A DNA stretch of 33,294 bases from Xanthomonas translucens pv. translucens DSM 18974 (lineage in GTDB: Bacteria; Pseudomonadota; Gammaproteobacteria; Xanthomonadales; Xanthomonadaceae). Position numbers and translations under genes: made by a program. How positions within the stretch are numbered: position 1 is the stretch's first letter; every line of letters begins with the position of its first letter. Positions 1,687-18,307 of this stretch are shown here, one piece after another. The notes beneath the pieces are model-generated. The model ran no database searches and had not been told where the DNA came from. It worked only from the letters and a program-made list of their open reading frames with translations. The stretch is taken from positions 1 to 33,294 of the forward strand of contig NZ_CAPJ01000529.1 in NCBI RefSeq assembly GCF_000331775.1, written 5' to 3'.

Positions 1687-1804
1687 GGCCGCGCCGCGGG
1701 ATGCCGACGTGCCGAGGAGCGTGGGTCTGCGCGTGGCGGCGGCGCTGGCGATGTTGCAGTGCATCGGCTACCGTGCGCGCAACCACCCGGCGAACGGCAG
1801 GCCG

Positions 1805-3112
1805 ATGCAAGCGGAAAACAAGCGCGTCCAGACCGGCGAGCTGCGCGCGGTGCTGCTGTCCTTCGTCTATTTCTTCTGCGTGCTGGCGGCGTACTACGTG
1901 ATCCGACCGGTGCGCGAGCAGCTGTCGGCGGCGGTCGGCTCGACCCAGTTGCCCTGGTTCTTCATGGCCACCTTCGTCGCCACGTTGCTGCTGACCCCGC
2001 TGTTCGCATGGATGGCGGCGCGCTGGCCTCGGCGGATCGTGGTGCCGGCGGTGTACGTGTTCTTCGCGCTGTGCCTGCTCGGCTTCGTGCCGCTGTTCAG
2101 CGGTCACGGCCGGCTCAGTCCGCGCGTGCTGGGCATCGTGTTCTTCGTCTGGGTCAGCGTGTTCAACCTGTTCGTGGTGTCGGTGTTCTGGAGCTTCATG
2201 GCCGATATCTGGAGCAATGAACAGGCACGGCGGATGTTCCCGTTGATCGGCTTGGGCGGCACTGCCGGCGCGTTGGCCGGGCCCCTGCTGACCCGCGGGC
2301 TGGTCGGGGTGATCGGCGTGGCGCCGCTGCTGGTGGTGTCGGCGGCGCTGCTGTGCGTGGCGCTGGCCTGCGTGATTCTGCTCGGGCGCTGGGCGCGGGT
2401 GCATGGCGCGCGCCGTCATGACGTCGGCCACGAGGCGGCGGTCGGCGGCGGCATGTTCGACGGACTCAAGCAGATCCTGTCCAATCCGTTCATGCGCGGC
2501 ATGGCGTTGCTGATGCTGCTCGGCGATTGCATCGGTACGGTCGGCTATGCGCTGATGACCGATTACTCCGGCGCCACTTTCCACAACGCGGTCGAGCGCA
2601 CCCAGTTCGCCGCCAATATCGACATGGCAACCAACGTGCTGCAGGTCGTCGTGCAGATCAGCGTGACCCGCTGGCTGCTGATGAAGAAGGGGGCCGGCGC
2701 GGTGATCGCGCTATGGGCGCTGATCAGCGTCGGCACGCTGGTGGCGACTGCGTTGTCGCCCGACCCGTACGCGCTGGCGGTGTGGATCGTGCCCTGGGTG
2801 GTGCTGCCGCTGGTGATCACCCGTTCGCTGACCTACGGCATGGTCGGACCGGCGCGCGAATCGCTGTACACGCGGGTGCCGCGGCAACTGCGCTACCAGG
2901 GCAAGAATGCGGTGGATACGGCGGTGTGGCGTGCCGGCGACGTGGCCGTGGCCTCGGCGATGAACGGCCTGCGCGGGCTGGGCATGGGCGTGCCCGGTTT
3001 CGCCGCGTTGGCCGCGCTGGCGGCGACGCTCTCCGGTGTCATCGGCTGGCGCCTGGCGCGTGCGGTCGAAAGCACCGCGCCTGCCGCGTCGGAGACGGCG
3101 CCCACGCGTTGA
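1805..3112 (+). CDS. MFS-type multi-pass transporter (ATP/ADP translocase-like TLC subgroup)
   Basis: This is a polytopic inner-membrane protein with about 10-12 hydrophobic segments across its length. The first helix ends in AAYYVIRPVREQ, a signature of a transporter subgroup often annotated as MFS or NTP/NDP-exchange-like. A second signature, FVWVSVFNLFVVSVFWSFMAD, lies at about residues 115-135 and is followed by a glycine-rich GLGGTAGALAGP turn. The substrate is unknown; the link to nucleotide exchange is by family resemblance only. The ATG at 1805 gives 435 residues. An in-frame ATG at 1709 would add 32 Arg/Pro/Ala-rich residues that do not look like a leader, so I prefer 1805, with GGCAG a few bases upstream as a weak ribosome site. 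The gene stands alone and is divergent from the oxidoreductase. Confidence 0.8.
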   Translation: MQAENKRVQTGELRAVLLSFVYFFCVLAAYYVIRPVREQLSAAVGSTQLPWFFMATFVATLLLTPLFAWMAARWPRRIVVPAVYVFFALCLLGFVPLFSGHGRLSPRVLGIVFFVWVSVFNLFVVSVFWSFMADIWSNEQARRMFPLIGLGGTAGALAGPLLTRGLVGVIGVAPLLVVSAALLCVALACVILLGRWARVHGARRHDVGHEAAVGGGMFDGLKQILSNPFMRGMALLMLLGDCIGTVGYALMTDYSGATFHNAVERTQFAANIDMATNVLQVVVQISVTRWLLMKKGAGAVIALWALISVGTLVATALSPDPYALAVWIVPWVVLPLVITRSLTYGMVGPARESLYTRVPRQLRYQGKNAVDTAVWRAGDVAVASAMNGLRGLGMGVPGFAALAALAATLSGVIGWRLARAVESTAPAASETAPTR

Positions 3113-3196: not shown

Positions 3197-3550
3197 ATGA
3201 CCCTGCTGGCCTCGATCCTGGTATGCCTGGTGGCGTTGCTGCACCTCTACATCCTGGTGCTGGAGATGTTCCTGTGGACCCGCCCGCTGGGCATGAAGGT
3301 GTTCCGCAACACGCCGGACAAGGCGCAACTGACCAAGGTGCTGGCGGCCAACCAGGGCCTGTACAACGGCTTCTTGGCGGCAGGACTGTTCTGGGCATTG
3401 CTGGCACAGCGTCGCGACGTGGCGACCTTCTTTCTGATCTGCGTGGTGATGGCCGGGATCTACGGCGCGATGAGCGTCAGCCGGCGCATCTTGTTCGTGC
3501 AAGCTATGCCGGCATTGCTGGCATTGCTGCTGGTCTGGTACGGCGGGTAA
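3197..3550 (+). CDS. DUF1304 family small inner-membrane protein
   Basis: The 117-residue protein has four hydrophobic stretches, at about residues 2-24, 49-66, 72-92 and 98-116. The conserved pattern HLYILVLEMFLW, then NQGLYNGFLAAGLFWAL, matches the DUF1304 family of small four-helix membrane proteins, whose biochemical role is not known. The ATG at 3197 fits the family's N-terminus. An upstream in-frame ATG at 3167 would add ten non-conserved polar residues. It lies 84 bp after the transporter stop, so the two could be co-transcribed. It is the last ordinary chromosomal gene before the gibberellin cluster. Confidence 0.85.
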   Translation: MTLLASILVCLVALLHLYILVLEMFLWTRPLGMKVFRNTPDKAQLTKVLAANQGLYNGFLAAGLFWALLAQRRDVATFFLICVVMAGIYGAMSVSRRILFVQAMPALLALLLVWYGG

Positions 3551-4138
3551 AACCCAGGTAAGTATCGCCGCCGATGTGCCCGCATCGCGGTGGGGCCGGC
3601 GTCGATCGGGGATCTGAGGCGCCTGGCGAAGGCAGGAGGCGGCAACTGCGCGCGCCTGCAAGCAACAGCATCAGAGCATCCAGGCAAAGACCATCTGCTA
3701 CGGAACATGGCGCGCGCCATCGCCGCCGCGCCACGGGCGTGCGCGTGCCGATCGGAAACGCGCGGGGCGAGGCGTTTTGTGCACAGGCGCGCCGGCCCAG
3801 CCGATCCGTTCCTGCGCAAGCGTGGCTGGGCATTGGCCACATCGTGAGATGGCGAAGGACAAGATCGGATTAAGTCCAGATCGCATTTTACGAAATTCTG
3901 GCGAACCTTTATTGGCTAAACGATGGCCGTGCGTCGCTGAATCGCGATGGATCGCAATATTTTTGTCCAATTTGTATCTACTATGTATCTTGGTTTTTTT
4001 GAACGAATGATAATTTTTCTAAGAAACAGCTGGATATGATGGGGATGTCAGCGAACGTTTCATTGAATTGAAGCTGCCGGAGTGAGCTCTTTCCGTTGCA
4101 AAAGCTATGCATCTGCAAAGATTCGTGTGCTTATATTT

Positions 4139-4158
4139 TTTGTGCGCTTTCGCACAAA
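4139..4158. promoter_or_regulatory. Inverted repeat upstream of the gibberellin operon
   Basis: TTTGTGCG (4139-4146) and CGCACAAA (4151-4158) form a perfect 8-bp dyad around a CTTT loop. It lies about 85 bp upstream of the TATAAT box. It could be an operator, or the terminator of a transcript entering from the left, since short A/T runs flank both sides. The binding protein is unknown. Confidence 0.4.
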
Positions 4159-4243
4159 GAAAATGTACTGGCGTGGCTGATGTAATTGAATTTCGCGCAC
4201 GTAATCCTGCTACGCTGCGATATTTCGAGGGCTTTGCATAAAA

Positions 4244-4262
4244 TATAATTATTTTGTAAGGA
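4244..4262 (+). promoter_or_regulatory. Candidate -10 box and ribosome-binding site of the gibberellin operon
   Basis: A perfect TATAAT at 4244-4249 would place the transcript start near 4256. A Shine-Dalgarno AAGGA at 4258-4262 follows, 9 nt before the CYP115 ATG at 4272. No good -35 box stands at the normal distance (TATTTC at 4221-4226 is weak), which suggests that transcription may need an activator. The implied 5' leader is very short. Confidence 0.45.
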
Positions 4263-4271
4263 TCTATTGGT

Positions 4272-5507
4272 ATGCGCTTGGAAAGCGAACGTTGTGATGT
4301 GATCGATATGTCGATCGCTCAGTCGCAATTGGATAATGCATCGTTTTCGATTCTGCAGTGGGATGGGGTGGCTAGGGTGGCGCTGCCCGGCAATGTCGTG
4401 ACCTGGGCCGCGGGCCGTCATCAGACGCTCAAATGCATCCTTGCCGACCAGCGCTTCAGCAGAGACTGGCGGCATTGGCGAGCGCTGCAGGATGGCGAAA
4501 TCCCAGAGGATCACCCGCTGATCGGAATGTGCAGGCTGGATAACATGGTCACTGCGCACGGTGCCGATCACCAGCGCCTGCGCGGACTGTTGGCCAGAAG
4601 CTTCGCGCCCAGCCGCATCGCCTTGCTGGCTCCCGATATCGAACGCCGCGTCGACCAGCTCCTCGCCGGGATCGCCGCGCGCGGCAGCGCCGATCTGATG
4701 CAGGAGTTCGCCGTCCCGCTGCCCGCCAGCGTGATTGCCGAACTGTTCGGCTTGCCGGAGGAAAACCGTGCCGAGATCATCCTGCTCACCAACAGCCTGG
4801 CCAGCACCTCCGCGTCGGCCGCCGAGGTGCAGCAGACGCGGCAACGCATTCCGGATTTCTTTCGCTGGCTGATCGCGCTCAAGCGGCGCCTGCCCGGCGA
4901 CGACCTGGCGTCGGCGTTGATCGCCGCGCGCGATAGCGGCGAACTCGTTTCCGACACCGAACTTATCGACATGCTGTTCATGGTGCTTTCGGCGGGTTTT
5001 GTGACCACCACCGGCGTCATCGGCAATGGCGTGCTGGCATTGCTGACGCATCCGCAGCAGCTGCGCCTGGTGCTGAGCGGCCAGGTTCCGTGGGCGCAGG
5101 CGATCGAGGAGATTCTGCGTTGGGGCAGCAGTGTGGCCAACCTGCCGTTCCGCTATGCCACACAGGATGTGGAAATCGACGGCTGCACGATCCGGCGTGG
5201 CGAGGCCATCCTGATGGCGTTCCACGCGGCCAACCGGGACGAGCGCGCGTTCGGGCCGGGCGCCCAGGCCTTGGATGTCACCCGGCAGCCCAATCCCCAT
5301 CTGTCGTTCGGGCAGGGGCCGCATTTCTGCCTGGGCGCCGCGCTGGCACGCCTGGAATTGCTATGCGCGTTCCCGGCGCTGTTCGCGCGGCTGCACGAGC
5401 TGGCGTTGGCCGTCGCCCTGGAAGACATCGCCTATCAGCCTTCTTACGTGATCCGTTGCCCACAACGGCTGCCGGTCACCTTCCGCCCTTCCATCGCCAG
5501 AGAGTGA
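4272..5507 (+). CDS. cyp115: CYP115 cytochrome P450, gibberellin 3-oxidase (GA9 to GA4)
   Basis: This 411-residue soluble bacterial P450 has the K-helix ExxR at Glu280-Arg283 and the haem loop FGQGPHFCLG with the thiolate ligand Cys353. Its place at the head of a CYP112-CYP114-Fd-SDR-CYP117-GGPS-CPS-KS-IDI series identifies it as CYP115. In the established bacterial pathway CYP115 3-beta-hydroxylates GA9 to the bioactive hormone GA4. Full length and an open frame argue that it is functional; many rhizobial operons lack it or keep only a fragment. The I-helix reads AGFVTT (241-246), so the acidic residue usual in the oxygen-activation motif is replaced by Val. The start is set by AAGGA 9 nt upstream. 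The first 25 codons are lower in GC than the rest. The next gene begins 8 bp after the stop. Confidence 0.88.
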   Translation: MRLESERCDVIDMSIAQSQLDNASFSILQWDGVARVALPGNVVTWAAGRHQTLKCILADQRFSRDWRHWRALQDGEIPEDHPLIGMCRLDNMVTAHGADHQRLRGLLARSFAPSRIALLAPDIERRVDQLLAGIAARGSADLMQEFAVPLPASVIAELFGLPEENRAEIILLTNSLASTSASAAEVQQTRQRIPDFFRWLIALKRRLPGDDLASALIAARDSGELVSDTELIDMLFMVLSAGFVTTTGVIGNGVLALLTHPQQLRLVLSGQVPWAQAIEEILRWGSSVANLPFRYATQDVEIDGCTIRRGEAILMAFHAANRDERAFGPGAQALDVTRQPNPHLSFGQGPHFCLGAALARLELLCAFPALFARLHELALAVALEDIAYQPSYVIRCPQRLPVTFRPSIARE

Positions 5508-5515
5508 GTCCTGTC

Positions 5516-6718
5516 ATGTCGCAAAGCGAATTGGTAACTCTACCCATGTGGCGCGTGGAGCATATCGAGCCTTCGCCTGCAATGCTGATGTTGCGCGCGG
5601 ACGGGCCGATCCACCGCGTACGCTTTCCCTCCGGACACGAAGGCTGGTGGGTGACGGGCTACGACGAGGCCAAAGCGGTCCTGTCCGATGCGACGTTCCG
5701 CCCGGCGGGAATGCCGCCAGCCGAATTCACGCCGGATTCGGTGATCTTGGGTTCGCCGGGGTGGCTGGTCTCGCATGAGGGCATTGAACACGCCAGGCTG
5801 CGCACGATCGTCGCGCCGGCCTTCAGCAACCGGCGGGTGAAGCTGCTCGCGCAACAGGTCGAGGCGATCGCCACGCAGTTGTTCGATGCGCTGGAGACCC
5901 AGCCGCAGCCCGCCGACCTGCGGCGCGCGCTCTCCTTCCCGCTTCCGGCCATGGTCATCAGCGCGCTGATGGGCGTGCCTTATGAGGATCATGCCTTCTT
6001 CGCCGGACTGTCCGACGAAGTGATGACGCACCAGCACGAAAGCGGCCCGCGCAACGCGTCGCGCCTGGCCTGGGAAGAACTGCGCGCCTACATCCGCGGC
6101 AAGATGCGGGAAAAACGCCAGGCTCCGGGCGACAACCTGTTGACGGATCTGATGCAGGCGGTCGATCGCGGCGAAGCGACCGAGGAGGAAGCGATCGGCT
6201 TGGCAGCGGGCATGCTGGTTGCAGGGCATGAGAGCACGGTCGCGCAGATCGAATTCGGGCTGCTGGCGTTGTTCTGCCATCCGCAACAACGCGAGCGTCT
6301 GGTCGGCGATCCGTCTCTGGTCGAGAAGGCGGTTGAGGAAATCCTGCGCATGTACCCGCCGGGCGCCGGCTGGGACGGCATCATGCGCTATCCGAGGACC
6401 GACGTGACCATCGCAGGGGTGCACATTCCCGCGGAGAGCAAGGTGCTGGTCGGCCTGCCGGCGACCGCGTTCGATCCGCGCCATTTCAACGACCCGGAAG
6501 TCTTCGATATCGGACGCGACGAAAAGCCGCATCTGGCGTTCTCCTACGGTCCGCACTATTGCATCGGCGTCGCGCTGGCCAGGCTGGAGCTCAAGGTCGT
6601 GTTCGGCTCGATCTTCCAGCGCTTTCCCGGATTGCGCCTGGCGGTGGCGCCCGACGAACTCAGACTGCGCAAAGAGATCATCACCGGTGGATTCGAGGAG
6701 TTCCCGGTGCGCTGGTGA
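5516..6718 (+). CDS. cyp112: CYP112 cytochrome P450, gibberellin 20-oxidase-type (GA12 to GA9)
   Basis: The 400-residue P450 has I-helix AGHEST, K-helix ExxR (Glu275-Arg278) and the haem loop [10 protein letters not shown] with Cys349. Order in the operon identifies it as CYP112. In characterised bacterial gibberellin operons this enzyme carries out the successive C-20 oxidations that turn GA12 into the 19-carbon GA9 through GA15 and GA24. No membrane anchor is seen, as expected for a bacterial P450 using soluble redox partners. The ATG at 5516 lies 8 bp after the CYP115 stop. A longer upstream frame would overlap CYP115 and lacks P450 features. A 92-bp gap separates it from CYP114, the loosest join among the P450 genes at the front of the operon. 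Confidence 0.88.
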
Positions 6719-6810
6719 GGACGAATACCAGCGGACACGGCGATCTTCCGCCAGTCGCCGGCGCGCTTGCCGCGCGCCGGGCAGATCAACCAGCCAAGCA
6801 GGGAAAGACG

Positions 6811-8100
6811 ATGGACGTGCAAAACACCACGGCAGTATGCCGGGACGCATTCGCCGAACTGGCATCGCCAGCGTGCATCCGCGACCCGTACCCATTCATG
6901 CACTGGCTGCGCGAGCACGATCCGGTGCATCGCGCGGCCTCGGGCATCTTCCTTTTGAGCCGTCATGCCGACATCTACTGGGCGCTCAAGGCGACCGGCG
7001 ATGCATTCCGCGGACCGGCGCCGGGCGAGCTGGCGCGCTACTTTCCGCGTGCGGCGACCAGCCTTTCGCTCAACTTGCTGGCATCCACGCTGGCAATGAA
7101 AGAACCGCCGACGCACACGCGCCTGCGTCGGCTCGTTTCCCGTGACTTCACCGTGCGCCAGATCGACAGCCTGCGGCCCAGCATCGTGCGGATCGTCGAA
7201 GCGCGCCTGGACGGCATGGCGCCCGCGCTGGCGCGCGGGGATACCGTGGACCTGCATCGGGAGTTCGCGCTCGCCTTGCCGATGCTGGTCTTCGCCGAAT
7301 TGTTCGGCATGCCGCAAGAGGACATGTCCGGCCTGGCTGCCGGCATCGGCAACATTCTGGAAGGTCTGAGCCCGCATGCCAGCGACGCGCAGCTGGCCGT
7401 GGCGGATGCCACCAGCGCCAAAGTCCAGGCCTACTTCGGTGCCTTGATAGAGCGCAAGCGGACCGAGTCCCGTCAGGACATCGTGTCGCTGCTGGTCGGC
7501 GCGCACGACGACGATGCCGATGCGCTGTCGGATGCCGAACTGATCAGCATGCTCTGGGGCATGCTGTTGGGCGGTTTCGCGACGACTGCCGCGACCATCG
7601 ACCACGCGGTCCTGGCCATGCTGGCCTATCCCGAGCAGCGGCACTGGCTGCAGGGCGATGCCGCCGCGGTGAAGGCGTTCGTCGAGGAGGTCCTTCGCTG
7701 CGAGGCGCCGGCGATGTTCAGCTCCATTCCGCGCATCGCCCAGCGCGACATCGCACTGGACGGCGGCGTGATCCCGAAGAACGCGGACGTGCGCGTGCTG
7801 ATCGCGGCCGGCAACCGCGATCCGAATGCGTTCGCCGACCCCGACCGCTTCGATCCCGCGCGCTTTCACCACACCAGTCCTGGCATGTCGACGGAGGGAA
7901 ACATCATGTTGAGCTTCGGCCACGGCATCCATTTTTGCCTCGGCGCGCAACTGGCCAGGGTGCAGTTGGCAGAGAGCCTGCCGCGGATCCATGCGCGCTT
8001 TCCCACGCTGGTGTTGGCCGAGGAGCCGACCCGGGAGCCGTCCGCCTTCCTGCGCACGTTCCGCGTGCTGCCGGTGCGGCTGCATGCGGTGGGGGCCTGA
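6811..8100 (+). CDS. cyp114: CYP114 cytochrome P450, ent-kaurenoic acid oxidase (ring contraction)
   Basis: The 429-residue P450 has K-helix ExxR at Glu293-Arg296 and the haem loop [10 protein letters not shown] with Cys376. In the known pathway CYP114, helped by the ferredoxin encoded just downstream, hydroxylates ent-kaurenoic acid at C-7 and then contracts ring B to give GA12-aldehyde, the step that creates the gibberellin skeleton. The I-helix is GGFATT (254-259), with no acidic residue at the position before the Thr pair, like CYP115 and unlike CYP112 and CYP117. The ATG at 6811 follows AGGGAAAG by a few bases; longer in-frame starts fall inside CYP112. The stop at 8098-8100 is one base from the ferredoxin start, consistent with translational coupling of P450 and partner. 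Confidence 0.88.
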
Positions 8101-8101
8101 G

Positions 8102-8404
8102 ATGCGCGTCTTGGTCGACCAGCATCTGTGCGGAACCACCGGGCAGTGCATGCTGACCCTGCCGCGCATCTTTCGCCAGCGCGCGTCGGACGGCATCGCC
8201 GAAGTGTGCGTGGCGGTCGTGCCGGACGCCCTGCATGCCGCCGTGCGGCTCGCGGCCAGCCAGTGTCCTGTCGCCGCGATTCGCCTCATCGAGCGCGACG
8301 CTGTCGATGACGCCGATCACGGCAATGCCCCGCCGTCGTCGTCGGTCGCGCGACAGACGGCGACCGACCAACCGATCCCGGGAGGACGCGATGAACCGGT
8401 TTGA
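8102..8404 (+). CDS. 3Fe-4S-type ferredoxin partner of CYP114 (Fd-GA)
   Basis: The 100-residue protein has a ferredoxin core in residues 1-62. Cys10 and Cys16 (CGTTGQC) and Cys55 (CPVAAI) give the three-cysteine pattern of 3Fe-4S ferredoxins that serve bacterial P450s. An extra Cys36 lies outside the pattern. Residues 63-100 form a polar, Asp/Ser/Pro-rich tail with no cluster ligands. In the gibberellin pathway this ferredoxin is needed for efficient ring contraction by CYP114. It starts 1 bp after the CYP114 stop and overlaps the SDR gene by 14 bp, so the unusual tail is in part the sequence that also carries the SDR ribosome site. Confidence 0.87.
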   Translation: MRVLVDQHLCGTTGQCMLTLPRIFRQRASDGIAEVCVAVVPDALHAAVRLAASQCPVAAIRLIERDAVDDADHGNAPPSSSVARQTATDQPIPGGRDEPV

Positions 8405-9233
8405 AGGCAAGGTGGCGGTGGTGACCGGTGCAGGCGCCGGTATCGGCAAGGCATGCGCGCTCGCCATCGCGCGCGAAGGCGCCAGGGTGGTGGTGGCCGA
8501 TATCGATGGTCCGGCGGCCACGGCGTGCGCCGCGCAGATCGCATCCGCCGCGGGCCAGGCGCTGGCCGTCACCACGGACATCGCCGATGCGCAGGCGGTG
8601 GCCGCACTGTTCGAGGCGGCACAACGGCACTTCGGCGGGGTCGATCTGTTGGTCAACAACGCGAGCGCGATGCAGCTGACGCCGCGCGACCGCGCGCTCC
8701 TGGAGCTGGACATGGAGGTCTGGGACCAGACCATGGCGACCAATCTGCGCGGCACGCTGCTGTGCTGCCGGCAGGCCGTCCCGCGCATGATCGCCCGCGG
8801 CGGCGGCGCGATCATCGTCATGTCCTCGTGCCAGGGGCTGAGCGGCGATACCGCACAGACCTCCTATGCCGCGTCGAAGGCCGCGATGAACATGCTGTCG
8901 ACCTCGCTCGCCACCCAGTACGGTCACGCGCAGATCCGCTGCAATGCGGTCGCGCCGGGCCTGATCATGACCGAGCGACTTGTCGCCAAACTGGACGACG
9001 CCACGCAACGGCACTTGCGCCGGCACCAACTGCTTCCACGCGTCGGTCGTGCGGAGGACGTGGCGGCGCTGGTGGCGTTTCTGCTGTCCGACGATGCCGC
9101 CTTCATCACCGGCCAGGTCGTCTGCATCGATGGCGGCATGCTGGCGCATGTGCCGACGTATGCGGACGGCGGCAACAGCCGCGCTGCTGCGCATGTTGCC
9201 GCCCCCGACGCGGCCGCGGCACCGCACCGCTGA
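8391..9233 (+). CDS. Short-chain dehydrogenase/reductase, GA12-aldehyde oxidation (SDR-GA)
   Basis: The 280-residue classical SDR has the cofactor motif TGAGAGIG at residues 12-19, NNAS at 89-92, catalytic Ser145/146, and Tyr159/Lys163 in YAASK. The C-terminal DGGM segment is also typical. In the bacterial gibberellin operon the SDR oxidises GA12-aldehyde to GA12 after CYP114 has made the ring contraction, probably using NAD+. A strong GGAGGA at 8381-8386 lies 4 nt before the ATG at 8391, inside the end of the ferredoxin gene. The last 30 residues are Ala/His-rich beyond the normal SDR fold. The stop TGA shares its A with the ATG of CYP117, so the two are translationally coupled. Confidence 0.88.
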   Translation: MNRFEGKVAVVTGAGAGIGKACALAIAREGARVVVADIDGPAATACAAQIASAAGQALAVTTDIADAQAVAALFEAAQRHFGGVDLLVNNASAMQLTPRDRALLELDMEVWDQTMATNLRGTLLCCRQAVPRMIARGGGAIIVMSSCQGLSGDTAQTSYAASKAAMNMLSTSLATQYGHAQIRCNAVAPGLIMTERLVAKLDDATQRHLRRHQLLPRVGRAEDVAALVAFLLSDDAAFITGQVVCIDGGMLAHVPTYADGGNSRAAAHVAAPDAAAAPHR

Positions 9234-10576
9234 TGGCCATGCTGCTCAATCCGTTGGACCGTCGTGCGCGGCTGCGCCACGACATCCCGGTCATGCGCGG
9301 CGCATTTCCTCTGGTCGGGCATCTTCCTGCCATCGTGTGTGATCTGCCGAACTTGCTGCAGCGCGCCGAGCAGACGTTGGGCAACCACTTCTGGCTCGAT
9401 TTCGGCCCTGCCGGGCAACTCATGACCTGCCTCGATCCGGAGGCGTTCGCGCTGCTCCGGCACAAGGACGTGTCGTCGGCGCTGATCGAAGAAATCGCAC
9501 CCGAACTGCTTGGCGGAACGTTGGTCGCACAGGACGGCACCGTGCATCGACAGGCGCGCGATGCGATCAAGGCGGCGTTCCTGCCCAAAGGGCTGACCCA
9601 GGCCGGAATCGGCGAACTGTTCGCGCCGGTCATCCAGACGCGGTTACAGGCGTGGCGCGACCGGGGCGAGGTGGCCATCCTGCGCGAGACCGGCGACTTG
9701 ATGCTCAAGCTCATCTTCAGCCTCATGGGCATTCCGGCGCAGGACCTGCCGGGATGGCGTCGCAAGTACCACCAGCTGCTGCAGTTGATCGTCGCTCCGC
9801 CTGTCGATCTGCCTGGCCTGCCGTTGCGGCGCGGCCGCGCCGCACGCGAATGGATCGATGCACAGTTGCGCCAATTCATCCGCGACGCGCGCGCGCATGC
9901 CGCGCGCAATGGCCTGCTCAACGACATGGTGAACGCCTTCGACCATGGCGACGATGCCCTCTCCGACGACGTTCTGGTCGCGAACATCCGATTGCTGCTG
10001 CTCGCCGGCCACGACACCACCGCTTCGACGATGGCCTGGATGGTGATCGAACTGGCGCGGCAGCCCGCATTGTGGGACGCGCTGGTCGATGAGGCGCAGC
10101 GCGTCGGGGAGGTGCCGACCCAGCCTGCGGACCTTGCACAGTGTCGGGTCGCCGAGGCGCTGTTCCGCGAAACGCTGCGCGTGCATCCGGCGACCACGCT
10201 GCTGCCGCGCCGCACACTGCAGGAACTGCAACTAGGCCAGCGGCGGGTTCCGGCAGGCACCCGCCTGTGCATCCCGCTGCTGTACTTCTCGACCTCGGCG
10301 CTGCTGCACGAAGAGGCGGATCGGTTCCGCTTGGAGCGGTGGCTGCAACGCACCGAACCGATCCGGCCGGTGGACATGCTGCAGTTCGGTACCGGTCCGC
10401 ATGTGTGCATCGGCTACCACCTGGTGTGGCTGGAATTGGTGCAGTTCTGCATCGCCCTGGCACTGACCATGGACAAAGCCGGGGTACGGCCGCGGTTGTT
10501 GGGCGATGTCGAAAAGGGCCGTCGCTATTACCCGACCGCGCATCCGTCGATGAGCATCCATATCGGCTTTTCGTGA
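9233..10576 (+). CDS. cyp117: CYP117 cytochrome P450, ent-kaurene oxidase
   Basis: The 447-residue P450 has a complete I-helix AGHDTT (258-263), K-helix ExxR at Glu313-Arg316, and the haem loop FGTGPHVCIG with Cys392. In characterised bacterial gibberellin pathways CYP117 oxidises ent-kaurene at C-19 in three steps to ent-kaurenoic acid. It looks more like general CYP families (long I-helix with acid-alcohol pair) than CYP114 or CYP115. The ATG at 9233 overlaps the SDR stop by one base; a second ATG two codons later (9239) is also possible. The gene is followed by a 142-150-bp gap with a strong hairpin, which separates the tailoring genes from the terpene-backbone genes. Confidence 0.88.
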   Translation: MAMLLNPLDRRARLRHDIPVMRGAFPLVGHLPAIVCDLPNLLQRAEQTLGNHFWLDFGPAGQLMTCLDPEAFALLRHKDVSSALIEEIAPELLGGTLVAQDGTVHRQARDAIKAAFLPKGLTQAGIGELFAPVIQTRLQAWRDRGEVAILRETGDLMLKLIFSLMGIPAQDLPGWRRKYHQLLQLIVAPPVDLPGLPLRRGRAAREWIDAQLRQFIRDARAHAARNGLLNDMVNAFDHGDDALSDDVLVANIRLLLLAGHDTTASTMAWMVIELARQPALWDALVDEAQRVGEVPTQPADLAQCRVAEALFRETLRVHPATTLLPRRTLQELQLGQRRVPAGTRLCIPLLYFSTSALLHEEADRFRLERWLQRTEPIRPVDMLQFGTGPHVCIGYHLVWLELVQFCIALALTMDKAGVRPRLLGDVEKGRRYYPTAHPSMSIHIGFS

Positions 10577-10629
10577 GGTTACACAGCGTGCGCTCGGTCG
10601 GGACATCGACGCTGACGAGCCAAGACATT

Positions 10630-10663
10630 CCGGCGCCCACGGCCATGGCCGATGGGGCGCCGG
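10630..10663 (+). terminator. Long nested hairpin between CYP117 and GGPP synthase genes
   Basis: Arms CCGGCGCCC (10630-10638) and GGGCGCCGG (10655-10663) pair perfectly over 9 bp. Their loop contains a second stem, CGGCC (10640-10644) with GGCCG (10647-10651). Together they make about 14 bp of GC-rich pairing. No U-tract follows, so a full intrinsic terminator is unlikely. It may be an mRNA processing or stability element, or a weak attenuator. Confidence 0.45.
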
Positions 10664-10727
10664 CACCATCGCGGCGGTTCGTCTTCCGCCGTGGCCGTTT
10701 CCTTGCAGGTACAAGGACATGAACAAC

Positions 10728-11726
10728 ATGCACACCGGTTCCACGATGTACGACCCACGATCGGATGCTCCCGCTGCTGGGAGTACGCAGATGCAGGCGC
10801 GCGATGCCTCTGCCACGTCGCTCCAGGAGCCGTGGGCGCAGGCTGGCGCAAGGCGGGTCGAGCAGGCGATGGCGCGGTTGCTCTGCGTCGAAGACGACGG
10901 AGGGACGAAACTGGTGGCGGCGATGCGTTACGCCACCTTGCAGGGCGGAAAGCGTACCCGCGCCTTGCTTTGTCTGGCTGCCGGCGCACTGGCCGACGCG
11001 CCGGCGCATGTGCTCGACGATGTCGGCGCCGCCATCGAACTGATGCACGCCTGCACGCTGGTCCACGACGACCTGCCGGCGATGGACGACGACGTGCTTC
11101 GTCGCGGTATTCCGACCGTGCACGTCGAGTTCGGCGAAGCCACCGCGATCCTGGTCGGCGATGCGTTGCAGGCGCACGCGTTTCTTACCCTCGCGCAACT
11201 GGATGCGCCCGGCGACATTCGCGTCGCGCTCGTCCGCGAGCTGGCGCATGCCGTGTCCGCTGCCGGCGCCGCCGGCGGGCAGGCACTGGATCTGGCCTTG
11301 GTCGGACAGTATGTGGAGCTGGACAAGATCGTCGCGATGCACAGCATGAAGAGCGGCGCGCTGGTGCGTGCTTCCGTGCGCATGGGCGCCTTGTGCGCGA
11401 TCGCCGAAGACGGCGCGCACGCCGAGCTGTACCGTGCGCTCGATCGCTACAGTTCCTGCTTCGGCTTGGCATTGCAGGTGGTTGACGACATCCTCGATGC
11501 GACCGCCGATACCGCGACGCTGGGCAAGACCGCGGGCAAGGATGCGGCGGCGCAGAAGCCGACCTGCGCGTCGATCATGGGGCTGCAGGCCGCGCGCGCG
11601 TTCGCGCTTGAGCTGTTGCGCGATGCCGGAGCGGCGATCGCGCCGCTGGGGCCGCGCGCGGAACGGCTGGCGCAGATGCTGCGGCGGGCCGACCTATATC
11701 TGGCCGAGCACGCGCCATGCGCATGA
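10728..11726 (+). CDS. ggps: Geranylgeranyl diphosphate synthase (short-chain trans-prenyltransferase)
   Basis: The 332-residue protein is an all-helical isoprenyl diphosphate synthase. The first Asp-rich motif DDLPAMD begins at Asp114 and the second, DDILD, at Asp253. GGKRTRALL near 70-80 binds the homoallylic diphosphate. The DDx4D form of the first motif is common in bacterial enzymes. Sequence alone cannot separate GGPP from FPP synthase, but the place before CPS and KS, which need GGPP, makes GGPP the product. An ATG at 10719 lies only 1 nt after AAGGA (10713-10717), whereas the ATG at 10728 has a proper 10-nt spacing, so I prefer 10728. The first 35 residues are polar and poorly structured. 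A 266-bp gap follows before CPS. Confidence 0.87.
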   Translation: MHTGSTMYDPRSDAPAAGSTQMQARDASATSLQEPWAQAGARRVEQAMARLLCVEDDGGTKLVAAMRYATLQGGKRTRALLCLAAGALADAPAHVLDDVGAAIELMHACTLVHDDLPAMDDDVLRRGIPTVHVEFGEATAILVGDALQAHAFLTLAQLDAPGDIRVALVRELAHAVSAAGAAGGQALDLALVGQYVELDKIVAMHSMKSGALVRASVRMGALCAIAEDGAHAELYRALDRYSSCFGLALQVVDDILDATADTATLGKTAGKDAAAQKPTCASIMGLQAARAFALELLRDAGAAIAPLGPRAERLAQMLRRADLYLAEHAPCA

Positions 11727-11992
11727 AACGTCCTGCCTGCCTCGATGCACCCCGCCGCCGTGGCAGCCGGCCGCGGCAGCGGGGCCGCCCTGGCCCGGGT
11801 CGGGGCCACCGATCGCCTCGGTCGCCTGGCGTGGAAACGCTGCAGGCGCCGCGTTGCGCGCCGCCGTGCCCAAGCGCGTTGGCGGTGTGGCGATGCACGC
11901 AGGCGCGCGGCGAACCACGGCGGGCGTATCGCCGCGTGCGCGGCATGCGCCAGATCCAGTTTCTCGTCTCCCACTGTCAGAAGGAAGCCCGC
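11727..11992. other. GC-rich gap between GGPP synthase and CPS genes
   Basis: The 266 bp between the two terpene genes is long for this compact operon. Several Arg-rich open frames cross it but none resembles a known protein, and the frame leading into CPS has no Shine-Dalgarno site before its ATGs at 11717 and 11945. Only the last 12 bp, carrying AAGGA at 11981-11985, have a clear function as the CPS ribosome site. Confidence 0.5.
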
Positions 11993-14439
<2,447 letters not shown>

Positions 14440-14524
14440 ACGTGCGGATGCGGCGGCGCATGCAGTGACACCTGCGATCCAAGACGATGCCATGCGATCG
14501 TGCGACGGCGCGAAGGACGCGAGC

Positions 14525-15580
14525 ATGAGCGATTGCGGTCTGAGCCGGCGCAAGGACGATCATCTGGATATCGTGCTGGATCAACGCATGACATCGGCCA
14601 CCGCCGCGGCTGCGGCCGGCTGGGACCGCATCCGTTTCGAACACTGCGCATTGCCCGAGTTGGCTCTGGCGCAGATCGATCTGCGCGCCTCGCTGTTCGG
14701 CAAGGCGCTGCGGGCGCCGTTGCTGATCAGTTCCATGACCGGCGGCACGGCGCGTGCGGAAGCCATCAATCGGCATCTGAGCGAGGCGGCGCAGGCGCTG
14801 GGGATCGCCATGTGCGTCGGGTCGCAGCGGGTGAGCTTGCGATCCGGGAACTCGCAAGGCCTGACGCGCGCGCTGCGGCGCCTCGCGCCGGACGTTCCCT
14901 TGTTGGCCAATCTCGGTGCCGCGCAACTGTGCGAAGCCGACGGTCTGGACCTGGCGCGTCGCGCAGTGGAGGCGCTGGAGGCCGATGCGCTGATCGTCCA
15001 TCTCAATCCATTGCAGGAAGCGGTGCAGCCGGAGGGCGACCGCGATTGGCGCGGGGTCCTGGCTCAGATCGCACGCGTCGTGCGCAGCGTCGGAGTGCCG
15101 ATCGTGGTCAAGGAAGTAGGCTCCGGACTGTCGGCATCGGTGGCGTGCGCGCTGGTCGATGCGGGCGTGGCGGCGATCGATGTCGCCGGAGCCGGCGGCA
15201 CCAGTTGGGCCGCAGTGGAAGGCGCGCGCGCCAGCGATCCCGCCGACCGTGCGGTGGCGATGGCGTTCGCAGATTGGGGCATCCCGACCCCGCTCAGCGT
15301 GCAGGCAGTCCGTGAGGCGTTGCCCGCGGTGACGCTGATCGCCTCGGGCGGGGTCCGCGACGGTGTCGATGTGGCCAAGGCCATCCGCCTGGGGGCGGAC
15401 ATCGCCGGGCAGGCAGCCGGCGTGCTGCGTGCCGCGGCGCTATCCACCGAGGCGGTCGTCGCGCATTTCGAAATCGTGATACGCCAGTTGGCGGTCGTGT
15501 GTTTCTGTACCGGCTCGGCAGATCTGGCCGCGTTGCGTCAGGCGCGTCTGCTGCCTTCGGCGCATCCGCCCGCCGACTGA
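14525..15580 (+). CDS. idi: Type 2 isopentenyl diphosphate isomerase (FMN-dependent)
   Basis: The 351-residue protein has the type 2 IDI opening RKDDHLD, the MTGGT segment, [15 protein letters not shown], and the FMN phosphate region [19 protein letters not shown] in a TIM-barrel order. It interconverts IPP and DMAPP with reduced FMN and Mg2+, balancing the two precursors from the MEP pathway for GGPP synthase. The ATG at 14525 follows AAGGA (14513-14517) by 7 nt. Upstream in-frame ATGs at 14408 and 14426 fall in or near the end of KS and add unconserved residues. It ends the operon. IDI is an accessory gene found in some but not all bacterial gibberellin operons. Confidence 0.88.
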
Positions 15581-15826: not shown

Positions 15827-18307
15827 TCAGGCTGCTTCGCGCGAGTGGTCGTCGCCGGCCGTGGCACGCTGGTAGTAGCTGGCCGAGCGCAATTCATCGG
15901 CGTCGAAATCGTCCACGCTGATCGTGTCCATGGTGATCTCGCGCAGTTCCTCCAGCTGGCGGCGCTCGTCGGCCGAGAGCACGCCTTCGCGCACCGCCTC
16001 GTCCAGCTGCGCCGCGAAGTCCAGCGCCTCGATGCCCTTGCTCTTGAGCGCCTTCAGGAACTTGCGCTCGACCGGCTCGGCCAGCACCGCCTTGGTCAGG
16101 TAGCTGGCGATGCGGCCGCCCGGATTGTTCTCGCACGGTGTCAGGAACACGTCATGGCCGAGGCGGTCGCGGGCTTCGTTCGGGGTCATCAGCAGCGCAG
16201 CGACGCGGTGGCCCAGGCGGTCGCCCGGGGCTTCGGCGCGGCGGCCCCACGGAAAGATCAGCGCCCACATCAGCCAGCCCACCGGGCGGATCGGGAAGTT
16301 GCGCAGTGCCGCCGACAGCGCCAGCTCGATCTTGTGCACGCTGTCGTGGAACGCCCAGGCCAGCAGCGGCTGGTCGGTCGCCGGGGCGCCCTCGTCGTGG
16401 TAGCGCTTGAGCATCGCGCTGGTCATGTAGATATGGCTCAGCACGTCGCCCAGGCGGCCGGACAGCGATTCCTTGAACTTCAGCTTGCCGCCGAGCATCA
16501 GCATCGACACGTCGGCCATCAGCGCCAGGTTCGCCGAATAGCGGTCCAGCTTGCGGAAGAAGCGGCGGGTATAGGCGTCGCCGGGGGCCGCGCCGATGCG
16601 TGCGGCGGTCAGGCCGAACCACAGCGAGCGCACCGCGTTGGAGATCGCGAAGCCGATATGGCCGAACAGGTTGCGGTCGAACGCGTCGACGCCGGCCTTG
16701 TGGTCGGGGTTGGCGGCGGCCTTCATTTCCTTCATCACCCACGGATGGCACAGGATCGCGCCCTGGCCGAAGATCAGCAGGCTGCGGGTCATGATGTTGG
16801 CGCCTTCCACGGTGATCGCGATCGGCGCCGCCTGCCAGCTGCGGCCGGCGAAATTGCGCGGGCCGAGGATGATGCCCTTGCCGCCGACCACGTCCATCAC
16901 GTCGCTGATGACTTCGCGGCTCATCGAGGTGCAGTGGTACTTGGCGATCGCCGACGGCACCGACGGCACGTCGCCGCGATCCACCGCCGCGGCGGTGGCC
17001 TGGGCCAGCGCGCTGATCGCATAGGCCTTGCCGCCGATCCGCGCCAGCGCCTCTTCCACGCCTTCGAAGCGGCCGACCGACAGGCCGAACTGCTTGCGGA
17101 TGCGCGCGTAGGCGCCGGTGACGATCGCGCCGTACTTGGCGCCGCCGCTGGCGGTGGAGGGCAGGGTGATCGAGCGGCCCACGGCCAGGCACTCGTTGAG
17201 CATGTTCCAGCCCTTGCCGACCATGTCCACGCCGCCGATCAGCTGGCTGAGCGGGATGAACACCTCGCGGCCGTGGATCGGGCCGTTCTGGAACGGCGAG
17301 TTCAGCGGGAAGTGGCGGCGGCCGATTTCAACGCCGGGCGTTTCGCGCGGCAGCAACGCCAGGGTGATGCCGATGTCCTTGGTGTCGCCGATCAGGCCGT
17401 CCGGGTCGTACATGCGGAACGCCAGGCCGACCAGCGTAGCCACCGGCGCCAGGGTGATGTAGCGCTTGTCGAAGGTCAGCTTGACGCCGAGCACGTTGGC
17501 GCCGTTCCACTCGCCCTTGCAGACGATGCCGTAGTCGGGGATCGAGGTCGCGTCGGACCCGGCGAACGGGCCGGTCAGGCCGAAGCACGGCACTTCCTGA
17601 CCCACCGCCAGGCGCGGCAGGTAATAGTCCTTCTGTTCCTTGGAGCCGTAATGCAGCAGCAGTTCGCCAGGGCCCAGCGAGTTCGGCACGCCGACGGTGG
17701 AGCTGACCACGCTCGATACCGAGGCGATCTTCTGGATCACCTTGTGGTGGGCCAGCGCCGAGAAACCCAGGCCGCCGTATTCCTTGGGAATGATCATGCC
17801 GAAGAATTTGTGCTTCTTGACGAAGCTCCACAGCTCAGGCGGCAGGTCGGCGTGGACGTGGGTGATTTCCCAGTCGTTGGTCATCCGGCACAGCTCTTCC
17901 ACCGGGCCGTCGAGGAAGGCCTGCTCCTCGGCGGTCAGCTGCGGCTTCGGGTAGTCGAGCAGCTTCTGCCAGTCCGGATCGCCGGTGAACAGTTCGCCCT
18001 CGAAACCGACCGAACCGGTTTCCAGCGCGATCCGCTCGGTCTGCGACAGCGGCGGCAGCACCTTGCGGAACACCTTCAGCATCGGCGCGGTGAGCAGCGG
18101 CTTGCGCACGAACGGCAGCAGCAGCGGCACCGCGACCAGCGCCAGCAGCACCGCGGCGGCGATGGTGGCGGTGTGGCTGGCGCCGAGCAGCCAGCACGCG
18201 ACCAGCAGCGTGGCGCTCAGTGCGGCCCAGACGGCGAGCCGCATGCGGTGATAGGCGGCGAAGGCGCCTGCCAGCAACAACACGAGGAAGGGTGCGACGA
18301 TGCTCAT
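15827..18307 (-). CDS. fadE: FadE-type acyl-CoA dehydrogenase
   Basis: At 826 residues this matches the long FadE family (E. coli FadE is about 814), not the 380-residue soluble dehydrogenases. Residues 1-65 hold two hydrophobic segments that would tie it to the inner membrane. The acyl-CoA dehydrogenase core follows, with the substrate/FAD region LTGPFAGSDATSIPDYG near 245-260 and a long C-terminal FadE domain. It catalyses the FAD-dependent first oxidation of fatty-acyl-CoA in beta-oxidation, with electrons passing to ETF. Its ATG overlaps the stop of the upstream hydrolase gene in ATGA, so the two are translationally coupled, and the pair lies opposite a TetR-type regulator. It is convergent with the gibberellin operon. 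Confidence 0.92.
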   Translation of the reverse strand: MSIVAPFLVLLLAGAFAAYHRMRLAVWAALSATLLVACWLLGASHTATIAAAVLLALVAVPLLLPFVRKPLLTAPMLKVFRKVLPPLSQTERIALETGSVGFEGELFTGDPDWQKLLDYPKPQLTAEEQAFLDGPVEELCRMTNDWEITHVHADLPPELWSFVKKHKFFGMIIPKEYGGLGFSALAHHKVIQKIASVSSVVSSTVGVPNSLGPGELLLHYGSKEQKDYYLPRLAVGQEVPCFGLTGPFAGSDATSIPDYGIVCKGEWNGANVLGVKLTFDKRYITLAPVATLVGLAFRMYDPDGLIGDTKDIGITLALLPRETPGVEIGRRHFPLNSPFQNGPIHGREVFIPLSQLIGGVDMVGKGWNMLNECLAVGRSITLPSTASGGAKYGAIVTGAYARIRKQFGLSVGRFEGVEEALARIGGKAYAISALAQATAAAVDRGDVPSVPSAIAKYHCTSMSREVISDVMDVVGGKGIILGPRNFAGRSWQAAPIAITVEGANIMTRSLLIFGQGAILCHPWVMKEMKAAANPDHKAGVDAFDRNLFGHIGFAISNAVRSLWFGLTAARIGAAPGDAYTRRFFRKLDRYSANLALMADVSMLMLGGKLKFKESLSGRLGDVLSHIYMTSAMLKRYHDEGAPATDQPLLAWAFHDSVHKIELALSAALRNFPIRPVGWLMWALIFPWGRRAEAPGDRLGHRVAALLMTPNEARDRLGHDVFLTPCENNPGGRIASYLTKAVLAEPVERKFLKALKSKGIEALDFAAQLDEAVREGVLSADERRQLEELREITMDTISVDDFDADELRSASYYQRATAGDDHSREAA

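Follow-up and report, generated by a model that had tools for sequence, protein, structure and literature searches.

The core gibberellin (GA) operon of bacteria is a contiguous run of cyp112, cyp114, fd, sdr, cyp117, ggps, cps and ks; it leads to GA9, which CYP115 converts to GA4 (PMC7273348, available portion). The same portion of that paper names S. fredii among the species with characterised operon genes, describes operon function as conserved across several distant gammaproteobacterial lineages, and states that cyp115 and idi are essentially always present in the GA operons of gammaproteobacterial phytopathogens. It also reports that the IDI of Erwinia tracheiphila interconverts IPP and DMAPP, and it attributes suppression of jasmonate-induced defence to the GA of X. 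oryzae pv. oryzicola. As the available portion of PMC6278637 reports a GA operon in every one of the 48 X. translucens genomes available at the time, the operon in X. translucens is known biology.

In the window (the whole stretch of DNA that was analysed, 33,294 nucleotides), we observed ten plus-strand genes spanning positions 4272-15580 in the order CYP115-CYP112-CYP114-Fd-SDR-CYP117-GGPS-CPS-KS-IDI, with the eight core genes contiguous. The locus and its immediate surroundings comprise the following features.

3197 to 3550, plus strand: left neighbour, a membrane protein that we take to be DUF1304-like, at the left edge of the insertion gap; adjoins fadE in 18 of 18 operon-free genus mates.
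3870 to 4271, plus strand: AT-rich upstream region, presumed promoter or leader; 40% GC for 3870-4270.
4272 to 5507, plus strand: CYP115, predicted GA9 to GA4 hydroxylase, 411 aa, haem Cys353; Pfam p450, intact frame.
5516 to 6718, plus strand: CYP112, 400 aa, haem Cys349; Pfam, 90% to the S. fredii NGR234 counterpart.
6811 to 8100, plus strand: CYP114, 429 aa, haem Cys376; Pfam, 86% to the NGR234 counterpart.
8102 to 8404, plus strand: operon ferredoxin, 100 aa; Fer4_15/Fer4_13, 68% to the NGR234 counterpart.
8391 to 9233, plus strand: operon short-chain dehydrogenase/reductase (SDR), 280 aa, YAASK; adh_short_C2, 87% to the NGR234 counterpart.
9233 to 10576, plus strand: CYP117, 447 aa, haem Cys392; Pfam, 87% to the NGR234 counterpart.
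10719 to 11726, plus strand: geranylgeranyl diphosphate synthase (GGPS), 335 aa, both Asp motifs; polyprenyl_synt, 81% to the NGR234 counterpart.
11993 to 13540, plus strand: ent-copalyl diphosphate synthase (CPS), 515 aa, DADD; SQHop_cyclase_C below threshold, 98% to X. translucens, 80% to X. theicola.
13537 to 14439, plus strand: ent-kaurene synthase (KS), 300 aa, DDCND; match to PDB 4w4r, Terpene_syn_C_2.
14522 to 15580, plus strand: type 2 isopentenyl-diphosphate isomerase (IDI); TIGR02151, 93% to G001.
15827 to 18307, minus strand: right neighbour, an acyl-CoA dehydrogenase, presumably fadE, at the right edge of the gap; Pfam ACDH_C, in 20 of 20 genus genomes.

The first-pass annotation had read this locus as a GA4 operon with an intact CYP115 and IDI, and our analysis bears this out. 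All ten frames translate without an internal stop in the order it gave; a full-length cyp115 opens the series (5') and idi closes it (3'). The haem cysteines lie where it had placed them, at residues 353 (CYP115), 349 (CYP112, counted from ATG 5516), 376 (CYP114) and 392 (CYP117), each being the eighth residue of a motif that starts at 346, 344 (CYP112, counted from 5510), 369 and 385, respectively. Its aspartate motifs were likewise recovered: DADD in CPS and DDCND in KS, which are the DxDD and DDxxD signatures of class II and class I diterpene synthases, and DDLPAMDDD and DDILD in GGPS. CYP115 also contains the I-helix sequence SAGFVTTxG, a pattern observed in this analysis rather than a published criterion, which is common to 18 of the 21 aligned rows; L005, L014 and the Lonsdalea CYP115 each depart from it by one residue. 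Domain matches agree with the assignments, although CPS scored 22.4 bits against Pfam SQHop_cyclase_C, under the cut-off of 26.1; IDI is a type 2 (FMN-dependent) isomerase (TIGR02151, 378 bits, cut-off 281.3). GTG 11993 and GTG 13537 are the most likely starts of CPS and KS, and the CYP112 start was taken as ATG 5516, two codons inside the ORF start at 5510. For IDI, ATG 14522 is likelier than 14408, because the TIGR02151 match begins at residue 47 of the longer ORF. Internal TAG codons listed for an AsmA-like gene in 17 of 18 relatives were set aside, as the TAG falls at query residue 14, before the alignment start used (16 rows); a second stop, present in two rows at the very end, was also dropped.

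The operon proteins were closest to operon members and not to other P450s or terpene synthases, in searches that covered a large protein set for CYP115, CPS and KS, plasmids for CYP117, and operon loci and NGR234 only for the rest. Best hits outside the CYP112, CYP114, CYP115 and CYP117 operon genes, named beforehand as counting against the assignment, were not obtained in these P450 searches (broad for CYP115; plasmids for CYP117; operon loci and NGR234 only for CYP112 and CYP114). Operons of the same order in other bacteria contain true counterparts at 63-99% identity (from 53% with Lonsdalea counted), which argues that the operon match is not due to chance. KS aligned over 300 of 300 residues (E 2.5e-149) with PDB 4w4r, named blr2150, which we take to be the characterised Bradyrhizobium ent-kaurene synthase.

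The CYP115 of G001, the nearest genome compared, which shares 36% of the window's sampled 31-mers, is 96% identical to the window's, and that of X. translucens pv. undulosa 95%. Among named CYP115s from beyond X. translucens, the highest identities are about 80% (X. oryzae pv. oryzicola, 81%; X. theicola, 80-82%; rhizobial copies covering at least 90% of the length, 76-81%), and a metagenomic protein, P0002, is at 88%. The X. oryzae pv. oryzicola operon, reportedly that of Nagel et al. 2017 (cited in PMC6278637), is more diverged from the window's, with CPS at 73% and KS at 71% to an X. oryzae record, and the operon copies of X. bromi and of genome G348 are about 80% alike in DNA. The X. theicola operon has all ten genes in the same order. 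The core operon of S. fredii NGR234 (pNGR234a) runs from CYP112 to KS in the window's order at 68-90% protein identity, with CYP112, CYP114 and CYP117 at 86-90%; it has no annotated CYP115 or IDI gene and by the literature leads to GA9, and an idi fragment is mentioned for it (PMC7273348, available portion). The operons of E. tracheiphila (CYP115 64%) and Lonsdalea (CYP115 69% over part of its length; KS 53%) hold the same genes and are the most diverged of those compared; Lonsdalea copies are reported as broken in the available portion of PMC6278637. When compared with the X. translucens operon described in that portion, the window's shows no difference of substance (CPS 98% and 92% to two X. 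translucens records). These protein names, with the 97.0% DNA likeness of seven coding flank genes to G001, place the host in the X. translucens group, as a further strain or a closely related species.

Searches for CYP115 recovered it from 2 of the 20 genomes in the genus of G001 (E <= 1e-30) and from 4 of 395 sampled across the family (E <= 1e-120); CYP117 was recovered from 4 of 398 sampled across the order. Among 72,556 plasmid records, 101 carry CYP117 relatives (E <= 1e-100), and the first word of every such record's name is Rhizobium, Sinorhizobium, Bradyrhizobium or Mesorhizobium. As side observations, an operon-type KS at 70% (P0243) carries a name that places it on a plasmid of Xanthomonas axonopodis pv. 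vasculorum, and the longest contig of its cluster is of chromosome size (4,809,560); such a plasmid is a possible vehicle for transfer among Xanthomonas. Three CPS relatives at 41-51% identity (P0150, P0154 and P0156, in Trinickia, Burkholderia pyrrocinia and Mesorhizobium retamae) sit between GA-operon CPS and other class II cyclases and may come from other diterpenoid clusters. A CYP115 at 76% identity (P0008) is recorded as coming from Paracidovorax avenae (longest contig 5,608,535 bases), and no Paracidovorax occurs among the named CPS and KS matches, where names were given for part of the proteins. If true, this full-length betaproteobacterial CYP115 would contrast with the absence of CYP115 reported for beta-rhizobial operons (PMC6278637, available portion).

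Taken together, we consider it very probable, from sequence comparison, that this is a chromosomal GA operon of an X. translucens group member that would make GA4, and that it was acquired horizontally by the ancestor of the group and has since been inherited with the chromosome. With proteins akin to those of the characterised GA operon and no broken frame, GA4 would be the expected product, as the first-pass annotation had proposed. In the predicted pathway, IDI would balance IPP and DMAPP, GGPS would supply GGPP, and CPS and KS would convert GGPP to ent-kaurene. The steps from ent-kaurene to GA9 are divided among CYP117, CYP114, the SDR and CYP112; here these enzymes, CYP114 with the ferredoxin, would carry ent-kaurene to GA9, from which CYP115 would form bioactive GA4. 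We infer that GA4 would be made by the window strain and would act on its host plant. By analogy, the jasmonate-defence role of X. oryzae pv. oryzicola GA might extend to this strain.

Upstream of the operon, positions 3506-4280 are 91.6% alike between the window and G001, and the match to X. theicola is confined to 3507-3571, the end of the left neighbour gene. No sigma-70 promoter or terminator was recognised at 3540-4300. Control of the operon by a PIP box was rejected, as a search of the whole window for the exact consensus gave 0 matches (0.61 expected by chance). A perfect inverted repeat, TTTGTGCG-CTTT-CGCACAAA, lies at 4139; it was rejected as an operator because its right arm is altered in G001 and the stretches of X. 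theicola and of X. bromi that were searched do not contain it.

This upstream region, with neither a recognised promoter-like site nor a PIP box, would fit an operon that is intact but silent, or one that halts at GA9, with expression or CYP115 activity lost beyond the level of the reading frame. So would the apparent CYP115 stop reported in three of five pv. poae strains, owing to which CYP115 appears dispensable in some of the X. translucens group (PMC6278637, available portion). Against such a loss, all ten frames are kept and dN between the window and G001 is 0.025 versus a dS of 0.111, a difference that points to purifying selection on the whole operon; we regard a silent or GA9-only operon as improbable. 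It is more improbable still that GA4 is not the main product and that a different GA, or some other kaurene derivative, takes its place. That proposal draws on the fact that function is read from homologues, the nearest named CYP115 outside X. translucens being at about 80%, and it is opposed by the presence of all genes required for GA4 and by the conservation of operon function in distant gammaproteobacterial lineages (PMC7273348, available portion). The window operon is best described as a real, intact and ordinary member of a system that is already known.

In the window, in G001 and in X. theicola alike, the operon occupies one and the same intergenic gap, flanked by the DUF1304-like gene and fadE. 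This site is empty in 18 of 20 genus mates, and in all 18 the two genes are direct neighbours, 162-619 bases apart; these empty sites hold no operon remnant, the matches there amounting to the two flank genes plus two chance hits of 26 bases. Near the X. bromi operon (~10.8 kb upstream, 2.2 kb downstream) and the G348 operon (~5 kb upstream, 3.6 kb downstream), nine flank genes were sought and none was present, and both operons therefore sit elsewhere. A Pfam scan of 30 window proteins revealed no integrase or transposase. The available portions of PMC6278637 and PMC7273348 contain no statement on a gap shared by X. translucens and X. theicola, and a search for the exact phrase 'Xanthomonas theicola' with gibberellin found no paper (PMC6278637 abbreviates the genus). 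Further to the left, an MFS gene at 1709-3112 exists in two unlike versions at one place in the genus: 92-96% identical to the window's in nine genomes, G001 among them, and 34-39% identical in a second set of nine to which X. theicola belongs (most comparisons covering part of the gene), with none in the stretches examined of the remaining two.

The codon make-up of the operon is foreign, as GC3 is 80.0-85.4% in nine operon genes (ferredoxin left out) versus 90.2-92.9% in four flank genes. A rise in overall GC, reported elsewhere as at least 7% above the surroundings (PMC7273348, available portion), is absent here as a mark of transfer (operon 67.6%, left 69.5%, right 67.4%), as may be expected because the host is so GC-rich. 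Between the window and G001, dS is 0.111 for the ten operon genes versus 0.090 for seven flank genes, which are 97.0% alike in DNA; this divergence of 1.2 times the flanks indicates that the operon travelled with the chromosome inside the group. These observations are consistent with a horizontal gain by the translucens-group ancestor, after which the operon would have been carried inside the chromosome.

The comparison with X. theicola differs. Operon dS between the window and X. theicola is 0.479, twice that of the chromosome, where the G001-X. theicola comparison of 68 genes gives a median of 0.222 (95th percentile 0.41); three of these genes attain 0.479, of which two were aligned over 70 and 81 codons. 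These 68 genes admitted ORFs from 120 aa and alignments from 40%; a stricter set of 57 (median 0.224) excluded ORFs under 150 aa, alignments below 60% of the ORF or 60% identity, and those with a stop. Both sets came from one 400 kb stretch and excluded overlapping ORFs and genes with dN/dS of at least 0.6. On the operon side, the NGR234 CYP115 row and the S. terangae CYP112 row proved to be paralogue matches, and these two operon totals were left aside. dS and GC3 are uncorrelated in the chromosomal genes (-0.005), although 1 of 16 genes with GC3 under 87% in the 400 kb exceeds dS 0.48. The operon's roughly twofold divergence makes plain vertical descent unlikely, and for the operons of X. 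translucens and X. theicola we favour either two arrivals at one site or the replacement of one operon there.

A single insertion in the common ancestor of X. translucens and X. theicola, followed by loss in the other species of the genus, would place both operons in one intergenic gap, and it gains from the seven window flank genes, whose dS to X. theicola ranges from 0.11 to 0.44 with three of the seven above 0.30. The operon tree is root-dependent in this respect: without the long Lonsdalea branch, both operons fall on one side of a fully supported split, and once that branch is included, X. theicola does not form a clade with the window group (AU p 0.005). Trees that unite X. theicola with the rhizobia and leave X. 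bromi and G348 outside were rejected in both the 11-row and the 10-row set (AU p 0.0009 and 0.003). A single insertion nevertheless sits poorly with an operon dS of 0.479 against the chromosomal median of 0.22 when the operon is only 1.2 times its flanks inside the group, and with the clean state of all 18 empty sites. Moreover, operon carriers do not form one clade in a three-gene species tree (AU p 0.004; 21 rows, two lacking one gene, X. theicola placed with weak support). The X. theicola core operon is also nearer to five alpha-rhizobial ones (87.9-89.4% in nucleotides) than to the window's (84.6%), so that its reported position, closer to alpha-rhizobia than that of X. translucens (PMC6278637, available portion), is visible in raw identity. 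We regard a single insertion as unlikely, and lean slightly towards the gap between the DUF1304-like gene and fadE being a recurrent operon home, at which two separately diverged operons arrived in independent events, or recombination across the shared flanks exchanged one for the other. The fadE gene is unusually close between the window and X. theicola (dS 0.109), which could hint at a trace of such recombination; fadE is a slow gene. The raised dS of the left neighbour to X. theicola (0.44-0.50) was considered as the mark of a transferred block and is not decisive, since this gene is fast genus-wide: its window dS to the 18 operon-free mates is 0.25-1.47, or 2.2-3.5 times that of fadE, versus 4.1 times for X. 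theicola.

From these comparisons, we conclude that the window strain carries every gene needed to make a bioactive plant hormone, in line with what is reported for its group. As an evolutionary lead, the insertion gap that it shares with X. theicola is a modest one: an operon that occupies a common site and is too diverged for plain inheritance offers a concrete case in which to study how it moves between plant pathogens.
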